A stretch of DNA of 44,213 nucleotides from Clostridia bacterium (GTDB taxonomy: Bacteria; Bacillota; Clostridia; Christensenellales; Borkfalkiaceae). Of the stretch, positions 3,371 through 13,671 are shown piece after piece. Position 1 is the first letter of the stretch; each line of letters opens with the position of its first letter. The stretch is from the NCBI GenBank assembly GCA_017508105.1, contig JAFVZP010000040.1:1-44213 (forward strand), in the 5' to 3' direction. The notes under the pieces were generated by a model. It was not told where the DNA came from. It ran no database searches and saw nothing but the letters and a program-made list of their open reading frames with translations. A program made the translations under genes and the position numbers.

Positions 3371-4708
3371 ATGCAGGCAAAGCGTTTTATCGTATTTATT
3401 TGCAATATCCTTATCACCATTGCTTGCGCGCTTTCCATCGGTGCTTATTTCGTTTTACCCCTTTGGAAGGTCGAGCTCACCTACAACGTCAACGCGCAAA
3501 TGCTCCAGGAGTTAGTCGGCGCAGAAAGCGACGAAGAAATGGATTTTGAGGAAATTCTTGGCGAAGAAGGTGTAACCCTCTCCCTCGGCTTTGAAATTCA
3601 AACCAAGGACGTGCTCTCCTTGCTCAATTCCGACCCGACCGTTGCCGTTTCCAATCTTATCGATGGTACGGTGGATAAGATTGTCGAGCAGCTTTCAGGC
3701 ACGCTCAACGAAATTGCGCAAGGCGTTGTATCCCAAGTGTCTAAGGAAATGGTCAAGCAATCGGTCAAGCAGTCGGTCGCCGATATATTTGCCGATAGCG
3801 GCAACCAAAAATCCGACCAAGAGCTGCAAGCCATTTTAAACGAGGTCGGTTTTTCTGACGAGTACATAGAAAACAAAACAGACGAGCTGTTGGATTCCAT
3901 GTATGCCGACGGGGCAACGGTTGGCTCGGTTGCCGATAAGGTAACCGAGATCGTAGAGGACGTATACCAAAAGCTCGACAATTCCGACTATGCGGAATTT
4001 GATGGCGCTGCGCTCTCGCCCGAGGATAAGGAACAGCTCAACGAGGATATACAAGAAGTGCTTGCCTCAATTTTATGCGCCGACGAGGACGGCAATATCA
4101 ATATGGACGATATGACCGCTCAGTTGCTCTTAGAGCTTTTGAACAGCCAAAACACGGCGGCTGTAGATCAAGCGAGCGAAATGCGCGTCGGCTACGCCCA
4201 AAGAGTGCAATCTGCCTATGCGGCAGAACCCCAAGAGGACGCCAACGAACAGTTGAAGCAGCAGGTTCGTGATGCCATTAAGCAGCAAATTCCCGAAGAT
4301 GCCGCACAGGGTATTGCACAGGGCATGAAATACGTTTCCTACGCGCTTTTATTTACCTTCTTCACTTGGGCGTATTTAGTTATCAAAATTGTCTTTAAGT
4401 TCTTCTCCAAGGACAATTCCATCAAGGTGAAGCTGCCCATTCTCTTGGGCTGGCTGCCCTTCTTGGTGCTTCAGGGCATTCCCACGCTCGTCATGTGGCT
4501 CTTTAAATCGTCGCCCGCATTCCTCACCGACGTGCTCGGTGCGGAAACGGTTGCGCAAATCACCGCCGCGTTAAACCCTCTGTCCGTCACCTTCTCTTCG
4601 GCGGCAGTGGTATCCTTTGCGGCGGCGGCAGCGCTCGCGGTATTCGTACTCTTCTTCTACGGTGGCATGCGTAAGAGCTTGAAGCGCACAATCCGTGAAG
4701 AACGGTAA
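3371..4708 (+). CDS. unrecognised membrane protein with large acidic extracytoplasmic domain
   Basis: I do not recognise this 445-residue protein. Its layout is clear. One membrane segment lies at residues 6-30. A long soluble, strongly acidic, helix-rich region follows at about 32-318, including repeated amphipathic heptad-like stretches at 95-140 and 160-235. Three membrane segments follow at about 321-345, 354-378 and 405-430, with a basic tail. With four helices, the large domain would face outside and both ends would face the cytoplasm. CGGAGG lies 7-8 bases before the ATG. It is monocistronic, with its own promoter and terminator. A sensor, adhesin or scaffold role would be speculation. 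Confidence 0.8.
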   Translation: MQAKRFIVFICNILITIACALSIGAYFVLPLWKVELTYNVNAQMLQELVGAESDEEMDFEEILGEEGVTLSLGFEIQTKDVLSLLNSDPTVAVSNLIDGTVDKIVEQLSGTLNEIAQGVVSQVSKEMVKQSVKQSVADIFADSGNQKSDQELQAILNEVGFSDEYIENKTDELLDSMYADGATVGSVADKVTEIVEDVYQKLDNSDYAEFDGAALSPEDKEQLNEDIQEVLASILCADEDGNINMDDMTAQLLLELLNSQNTAAVDQASEMRVGYAQRVQSAYAAEPQEDANEQLKQQVRDAIKQQIPEDAAQGIAQGMKYVSYALLFTFFTWAYLVIKIVFKFFSKDNSIKVKLPILLGWLPFLVLQGIPTLVMWLFKSSPAFLTDVLGAETVAQITAALNPLSVTFSSAAVVSFAAAAALAVFVLFFYGGMRKSLKRTIREER

Positions 4709-12741: not shown

Positions 12742-13152
12742 ATGCAATTTCTTTTCAGTATTCTCAGCGGCGGCGCCCCCGAAGGTGGCGATTTTACGAG
12801 CTATATCTTAATCGGCGTATTGCTCGTGGGCTTCGTTGTCATGATGATTTTTTCCAGCCGCAGCAACAAAAAAAAGCAAGAGGAACAGCAAGCCATTATG
12901 AACGCCGTTCGCCCGGGCAATAAGGTAAAGACCATCGGCGGCGTATGCGGCATCGTGGTGGAGGTCAACGAAGAGGAAAACACCTTCGTTTTGGAAACGG
13001 GCAACGAATTGAACGGCAAATCCTACATCAAGTTTGATAAGCAAGCCATTTACCAAACGGACGCCAAGGCAGAAGTGAAGACCGAAGCCAAGGCAGAAAA
13101 GCCCGAAACGGCGGATAGCGCGCAAAACAGCCAAGAAAAATCCGAGCAATAG
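12742..13152 (+). CDS. yajC: preprotein translocase subunit YajC
   Basis: The 136-residue protein has one membrane helix (about 14-33) followed by a basic segment SRSNKKKQEEQQ and the conserved core VRPGNKVKTIGGVCGIVVEV (about 54-73). This is the YajC pattern: a small membrane protein that associates with SecDF and SecYEG. The C-terminal 35 residues are a charged Lys/Glu/Ala-rich tail of low complexity. GGAG lies nine bases before the ATG. secD and secF are 2.4 kb downstream, beyond the SCIFF genes, which is a common arrangement in Clostridia. Confidence 0.95.
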   Translation: MQFLFSILSGGAPEGGDFTSYILIGVLLVGFVVMMIFSSRSNKKKQEEQQAIMNAVRPGNKVKTIGGVCGIVVEVNEEENTFVLETGNELNGKSYIKFDKQAIYQTDAKAEVKTEAKAEKPETADSAQNSQEKSEQ

Positions 13153-13177
13153 GCAAAAAACAGAATAATAAAAATTC

Positions 13178-13222
13178 CCTCCGCATAGGATAGTAAAAAA
13201 TCCACAGCGGAGGTATTTTTTT
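13178..13222 (+). promoter_or_regulatory. terminator-like hairpin that contains the RBS of the next gene
   Basis: CCTCCGC (13178-13184) pairs perfectly with GCGGAGG (13207-13213). Inside, GGAT (13188-13191) pairs with ATCC (13200-13203). A run of seven T follows (13216-13222). The right arm is the only Shine-Dalgarno sequence for the ATG at 13226. The element could act as a partial intrinsic terminator, an RBS lock, or both. Confidence 0.75.
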
Positions 13223-13225
13223 ATC

Positions 13226-13606
13226 ATGGATTTCAATAACGGGGCGATCGGCGTTGTTTTGGAGCTTGTAAAATCCATCGTCATTGCCGTATTTTTCTGT
13301 CTGGCGGCGGTATTGGTGTTTGCCTTCGTCATCAGTCTGGCGTCGTTGCCTTCCACCGTCATCACACCCGTCAATCAGGTCATCAAAGCGGCGGCAATCC
13401 TGTTGGGCTGTATCGTGGGGCTGGGGGACAGCCGAGGGTTGATAAAAGGCGCGGTTGTCGGACTTTTTTCGGTCTTTTTCAGCTTTTTACTCTTTTCTTT
13501 TATCGGCGGAGCGCTGCAATTCACACCCACGTTTGCCTTGGAACTGCTCTTTGGTGCGATTGCGGGGGGCATTTCGGGCGTCGTAGCGGTCAATCTGCAT
13601 AAATAA
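13226..13606 (+). CDS. small four-helix membrane protein, TIGR04086-like
   Basis: This 126-residue, almost wholly hydrophobic protein has about four membrane helices (roughly 15-38, 49-66, 73-93 and 100-122). Its size, topology and place between yajC and the SCIFF precursor match the uncharacterised clostridial family TIGR04086. The assignment rests mainly on context, because the sequence is low in diagnostic motifs. Function is unknown. The start codon follows a GGAGG site that is part of a stable hairpin, so its translation or transcription may be conditional. Confidence 0.75.
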   Translation: MDFNNGAIGVVLELVKSIVIAVFFCLAAVLVFAFVISLASLPSTVITPVNQVIKAAAILLGCIVGLGDSRGLIKGAVVGLFSVFFSFLLFSFIGGALQFTPTFALELLFGAIAGGISGVVAVNLHK

Positions 13607-13642: not shown

Positions 13643-13671
13643 TTGCAATTTTTTTAAGCGTGTTATATAAT
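13643..13671 (+). promoter_or_regulatory. SigA-type promoter of scfA
   Basis: TTGCAA (13643-13648) and TATAAT (13666-13671) are 17 bases apart. The leader is about 30 nt and carries a strong AGGAG. Confidence 0.75.

Follow-up and report, generated by a model that had tools for sequence, protein, structure and literature searches.

The element described here lies between yajC and the gene of a small membrane protein of the TIGR04086 family, in a window of 44,213 nucleotides (nt; contig JAFVZP010000040.1) from a Clostridia bacterium. It comprised a hairpin that paired the Shine-Dalgarno sequence (SD) of the TIGR04086 gene with an upstream arm, a T tract directly after the stem, and a sigma-E-type promoter whose -10 element, GCATAGGATA, began within the final two bases of the 5' arm. 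The element is very probably a promoter-nested insulator, which would terminate and translationally mute leakage from yajC while permitting sigma-E expression of TIGR04086.

The 5' arm CCTCCGC (13178–13184) was complementary at all seven positions to GCGGAGG (13207–13213), upstream of the start codon ATG at 13226, exactly where the original prediction had placed a hairpin over the SD with its run of seven T. The 111 nt from 13150 to 13260 folded at -29.0 kcal/mol, compared with -17.7 ± 3.2 kcal/mol for dinucleotide shuffles (z = -3.57; none of 200 was equal), and A-U pairs lengthened the stem into the T tract. Between 13178 and 13222 the G+C-rich stem was directly followed by a U tract, as in an intrinsic terminator. 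A consensus terminator scan of the window did not list the hairpin because it was limited to loops of 8 nt, while the interior of the hairpin is 22 nt. A genome-wide repeat was ruled out, since the hairpin was single-copy in the 1.16-Mb assembly.

TIGR04086 was detected in 52 of 61 relatives searched, which provided 52 strand-oriented junctions, 35 from the same family and 17 from the wider order; the genome of the window is counted in these figures. Among the 28 masked family sequences, a helix of 11 pairs was 87% paired, against 78.7% in shuffles and 44–56% when slid. There were 25 double-change cells in this helix where 6.7 ± 2.2 were expected, and 0 of 500 shuffles reached 25; compensatory examples were TCTCCGC/GCGGAGA in one relative (G028) and CCTTGC/GCGAGG in another (G017). 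These double changes are telling because the 3' arm has to remain an SD. A lack of compensatory changes in the arms was the outcome that the original prediction had named as its own refutation; covariation was found instead. The length of the loop and its 3' sequence varied freely among relatives, and the sole conserved loop-side bases were those of the sigma-E-type -10, which were kept also in genomes without the hairpin.

In RNA reading through from yajC, opening GGAGG in the window was computed to cost 14.0 kcal/mol, as opposed to 2.5 kcal/mol in RNA from the predicted start at about 13198. This start lies in the hairpin loop, and the gene's own transcript would therefore lack the 5' arm; all trial starts from 13186 to 13206 gave 2.3–3.2 kcal/mol, and RNA cut at 13182 already gave 3.6 kcal/mol. 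For the long RNA the family median (n = 35) was 12.6 kcal/mol; RNA from the own start gave 2.6 (computable in 30 of the 35), and shuffled upstream sequence 3.4. Masking of the TIGR04086 SD was significant at p ≤ 0.05 in 28 of the 35 family members, whereas the yajC SDs of the same genomes, used as a control, were masked in 0 of 28. The junction had the form of a masking leader, in that the SD paired with an upstream arm in the long RNA and the promoter was placed such that its transcript is predicted to skip that arm. A class-level sample, consisting of the best-scoring 30 of 114 genomes with a TIGR04086 match (148 searched), included 20 genes with a scorable SD; 10 of these were masked, several without any T tract (L295, L298, L299, L301, L306 and L320, among others from other Clostridia, where the masking arm was again upstream). 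Because masking occurs without a T tract in these deeper Clostridia, it is not merely a by-product of termination.

Within the 52 junctions, T tracts accompanied masking. The eight bases past the SD contained a mean of 6.5 T in 30 masked genomes and 3.0 in 22 unmasked genomes, the corresponding value for yajC being 2.5 (n = 28). Seven family members lacked the masking hairpin, one of them (G007) only just (p = 0.066); they spanned six genera, in three of which sister species retained it. Another terminator was found between the upstream gene and the promoter in six of these seven, but in only one of 28 hairpin-bearing family members (Fisher test, 2.9e-5); the scan also detected stems in which the T tract is taken up by A-U pairing. 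The promoter was mostly retained in family members without the hairpin, and the functions of promoter and hairpin are therefore separable. The earlier proposal that one element both terminates yajC transcripts and masks the following SD was thus upheld by the covarying arms, the conserved T tract and the loss of the hairpin from genomes that insulate the gene by another terminator.

Two features of the junction were conserved, namely the SD-complementary arm and a loop-side GCATANNNTA, often with an NATA block exactly 20 nt upstream. The latter pair resembled the -35 and -10 elements of the mother-cell factor sigma-E, and this likeness was then tested. A two-block motif was learned by expectation maximisation, unsupervised, from 30 family spoIIIAA upstream regions alone (the training set, out of 49 upstream regions from 54 genomes with a match), and read roughly G-T/G-T/C-A/C-T-A and A/C-ATA-NN-A-NTA. 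In the 113 nt before TIGR04086 this motif was significant (p ≤ 0.05, dinucleotide shuffles) in 26 of the 35 genomes of the family and in 12 of the 17 of the wider order, and in 25 of the 35 family regions when the test was redone on other shuffles. Controls from the same family gave 1/29 upstream of yajC, 1/25 downstream of TIGR04086 and 0/35 within TIGR04086, while the class-wide sample of 30 TIGR04086 genes contained 13 with a significant motif. In hairpin-less relatives that were inspected, the bases preceding the -10 differed from CCTCC, and the anti-SD arm is therefore not part of the promoter.

The genome of the window contained eight copies of GNATA-N12-18-GCATANNNTA, compared with two for the reversed control; one of the eight, identical to the nested promoter in -10 and spacing, preceded spoIIIAA (TIGR02858). 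SigE was encoded in this genome (NF006158, 362 bits, cut-off 339), and SigG also. The nested promoter combined a -35 ATA, a CATANNNTA-like -10 and sigma-E spacing, and the same arrangement stood before known sigma-E genes. In C. difficile, a -35 ATA is described as typical of sigma-E, and AC of sigma-K (PMC3789822); spoIVA, yabPQ and spoIIIA are given as sigma-E genes in B. subtilis (PMC517825). From these sequence features, sigma-E is presumably the factor acting on the nested promoter. Before spoIIIAA, both in the same genome (L145) and in relatives, the start codon was seen a few bases past the sigma-E -10, and an SD of at least 4 bases was present in only 6 of 28 family members, which suggests leaderless sporulation mRNAs for spoIIIAA.

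We envisage the following sequence of events. RNA polymerase leaving yajC would transcribe the whole hairpin, which together with its U tract would end part of the transcripts; in the remaining read-through RNA the hairpin would conceal the SD, and TIGR04086 would go untranslated. In the mother cell, RNA polymerase carrying sigma-E would start within the hairpin loop from the nested promoter, and the resulting mRNA, having no anti-SD arm, would form no hairpin and would be translated. Translation of TIGR04086 then probably occurs solely on the gene's sporulation transcript, without a contribution from leakage of its everyday neighbour. The 'switch' would be promoter choice rather than refolding, and no sensor is indicated.

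Several observations weigh against this interpretation. The SD was masked in just 2 of the 17 wider-order genomes. The start predicted for 5 of the 35 family members fell past the first SD base; in these, either the start rule must be off by some bases or the SD must be shortened. The promoter of the window itself scored only 10.1 bits (p = 0.06), lower than at least 12 other places in the 44 kb; because the site lay outside the 12 best of the window and a single-sequence scan is no proof, the case for the promoter is comparative. The Fisher test of hairpins against terminators ignores phylogeny and may be confounded by intergenic length; of the six terminators counted, that of G023 was weak in the scan. 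Lastly, sigma-K or sigma-G may also contribute to the nested promoter.

A covariance model of the hairpin was searched in the 61 relatives, and 24 places among the secondary matches were inspected. Fourteen lay directly before a start codon: four before spoIVA (C40:1543-1599 in the genome of the window, and three others), four before yabP, two before murA (the second by eye), two before TIGR04086 (one identified by eye), including TIGR04086 of another family, and one each before spoVT and ylmC/ymxH. Eight were ordinary terminators or had no fitting gene, and two preceded unidentified or lipoprotein-like open reading frames. For spoIVA, 52 upstream regions were taken from 54 matching genomes (the partial genes of G013 and G030 were left out), 50 with a usable SD. 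The SD was masked in 16 of 32 family members, the median cost being 9.6 kcal/mol in the long RNA and 1.8 in RNA from the predicted start; the corresponding values in the genome of the window were 11.6 in the long RNA and 2.9 from the gene's own predicted start. Many spoIVA hairpins used a different arm, CCTCTCATA...GGGAGG, which again ended at the -10. For yabP, 29 of 30 fetched loci were used (one had an in-frame stop) out of 56 genomes with a match, and 20 had a usable SD; masking was found in six of nine family members with an SD (14 examined). The device seems to recur before several spore genes in this lineage. We incline, by a modest degree, towards a general 'promoter-in-mask' module in Clostridia, in which many sporulation genes standing downstream of a housekeeping gene would have a sigma-E or forespore -10 at the tip of the anti-SD arm, so that about 50 nt would serve at once as terminator, mute and promoter. 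Such a module would have emerged or been rebuilt repeatedly, with other arm sequences (TIGR04086, spoIVA, yabP, spoVT, ylmC/ymxH) and would predict sporulation genes.

Other arrangements were seen beside these. Within the genus of this bacterium, at four loci upstream of yabP (L261, on C71 in the genome of the window, L260, L263 and L265), a -35-like CATAAA was placed within or close to the loop of a G+C hairpin, with a -10, CATATAGTA, after it; the ATG came a few bases past this -10 with no SD, constituting another nesting of terminator and promoter. In L098 (about 1190–1270; C42:12691-12720 in the genome of the window), a strong terminator (GCCCGACGGCATAGG...CGGGCATTTTTTT) had a -10, GCATAGGTTA, in its loop. 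This nested promoter had no SD mask and preceded a polysaccharide deacetylase-like gene, named by eye. The spoVT device (L190, G009 C3:73331) had CATACTA as its -10, which we take to fit the forespore (sigma-G/F) consensus; the promoter/mask module may not be limited to sigma-E.

Three other explanations were considered. The hairpin could be merely the intrinsic terminator of yajC, standing beside a separate sporulation promoter in a short gap, with SD masking a side effect of the reuse of GGAGG. The T tract that accompanies the hairpin, the loss of the hairpin where another terminator exists and the short intergenic gaps all suit this explanation, which is nevertheless unlikely, given that in other Clostridia upstream arms mask TIGR04086 SDs even where there is no T tract, and that unrelated arms at spoIVA and yabP also pair with the SD and also end at the -10. 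These observations argue for the promoter-nested insulator.

The nested promoter could instead be served by sigma-K, sigma-G/F or sigma-A, as the -10 before spoVT would suit a forespore factor by eye; the insulation logic would be unchanged. By eye, no TTGACA-like block was present at the required place. The -35 ATA block is of the sigma-E and not the sigma-K type, as described for C. difficile (PMC3789822), and spoIIIAA, from which the motif was derived, is under sigma-E in Bacillus (PMC517825); service by another factor is accordingly quite improbable.

A regulated RNA switch, with the hairpin of the yajC transcript opened by temperature, by a protein, by a small RNA or by a ligand, would fit an SD buried within a stable stem and had been raised in part by the original prediction, but it is highly improbable, since the conserved loop-side bases are promoter bases retained in hairpin-less genomes, the rest of the loop is free to vary, and in the computed fold opening the SD at 50 °C still cost 11.4 kcal/mol, so that the hairpin would not melt physiologically in the manner of an RNA thermometer. 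A search of Rfam gave no credible family for the hairpin (best matches at chance level, E 3.3 or worse), and a ligand-binding RNA was dropped on these grounds. A pseudoknot between the loop CATA and TATG at the start codon was also rejected, because CATA belongs to the promoter and is kept without the hairpin or with other starts. The original prediction was therefore partly supported, being right on terminator and mask, and wrong, or at least unneeded, on the sensory switch; the sigma-E-type promoter within the hairpin was absent from it.

The gene order at the site was tgt, yajC, TIGR04086, SCIFF peptide, SCIFF radical SAM maturase and a SecD-like gene, and profile searches bore out the identities of yajC (PF02699) and TIGR04086 (PF12670), as shown in Table 1. 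The SCIFF peptide gene had a good sigma-A-like promoter of its own (TTGCAA-17-TATAAT, window 13643–13671). A literature search on yrzE, TIGR04086 and DUF3792 listed no paper on the gene, and neither yrzE nor yrbF is named in the main text of PMC517825.

Table 1. Coordinates of features at the yajC-TIGR04086 junction, in window positions
Feature	Position	Strand	Basis
yajC (SecDF-associated YajC), upstream gene whose transcript enters the hairpin	12742..13152	+	PF02699, 64.7 bits
-35 element GAATAA of sigma-E-type promoter	13163..13168	+	CATA/AATA-to-CATA offset of exactly 20 nt in relatives; spoIIIAA position weight matrix
A-rich lower stem AAAAAT, pairs with T tract	13170..13175	+	Fold; columns 3-6 with 45-48 of the covariation alignment
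5' arm CCTCCGC (anti-SD), only in transcripts from upstream	13178..13184	+	Covariation; missing from the predicted own transcript
-10 element GCATAGGATA (GCATANNNTA) over end of 5' arm and loop	13183..13192	+	Identical -10 and spacing before own spoIIIAA; motif tests
Predicted transcription start zone, A run, about 13198	13196..13200	+	Predicted, with the last T of the -10 set as -7
3' arm GCGGAGG, holding SD GGAGG (13209-13213)	13207..13213	+	Pairing and SD-opening computation
T7 tract, terminator U tract and part of SD-to-ATG spacer	13216..13222	+	T tract accompanies masking
TIGR04086/DUF3792 small membrane protein gene, 126 amino acids	13226..13606	+	TIGR04086.1, 38.6 bits (cut-off 30); PF12670, 34.5 bits (cut-off 31.3)

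The overlap of terminator and SD can thus be explained as insulation of a developmental gene from the leakage of an always-on neighbour, and the uncharacterised TIGR04086 membrane protein is placed in a likely sigma-E sporulation programme. A timing device of phage style appears to recur at several spore genes of this uncultured gut lineage, and the hairpin covariance model together with the sigma-E motif offers a direct route to listing further members. If the promoter-in-mask module is real, it could serve to predict sporulation genes that have so far gone unrecognised, TIGR04086 among them. A literature search, which left subscription papers and most older literature outside its reach, yielded no account in which a sigma-E -10 is joined to a terminator and SD mask.

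One of the closest known systems is the leader of phage T4 gene e (lysozyme), as described in PMC3014915, where the SD is hidden by a hairpin in the long early RNA, while RNA from late promoters, located in the DNA of the 5' strand, lacks that strand and is translated. The present element is alike in having an SD-hiding hairpin in the long RNA and a promoter within the DNA of the 5' strand. It differs in that T4 uses phage late promoters, with no terminator described in that account, whereas here a sigma-E-type promoter, a U-tract terminator and a mask are merged on a bacterial chromosome. For sigG (spoIIIG) of B. subtilis, PMC5942855 relates that a large hairpin was proposed to stop translation of spoIIG read-through, and that it cannot form in RNA from the gene's own promoter. 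Common to both cases is a proposed read-through-blocking hairpin unable to form in RNA from the own sporulation promoter. As described there, however, the B. subtilis hairpin has 20 or more base pairs, belongs to a sigma-F/sigma-G gene and follows a sporulation-specific operon, while the element here has a 7-bp core, a mother-cell-type promoter with its -10 inside the arm, and a housekeeping gene upstream. At the sigE-sigG junction of the genome of the window (L092, about 3600–3685), CCTCC was seen between sigE and the sigG SD GGGAGG, which resembles the B. subtilis read-through hairpin. Intrinsic terminators share with the present element a G+C stem followed by a U tract, here at the 3' end of yajC, but in this case the U tract also separates SD from ATG, and the following gene has its SD in the 3' arm. 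Burial of the SD in a stem is likewise a feature of SD-sequestering riboswitches and RNA thermometers; here, by contrast, there is no aptamer or loop conserved at the RNA level, the stem is too stable to melt, and relief would come from the choice of start site. The masking device is known from a phage and one Bacillus gene.
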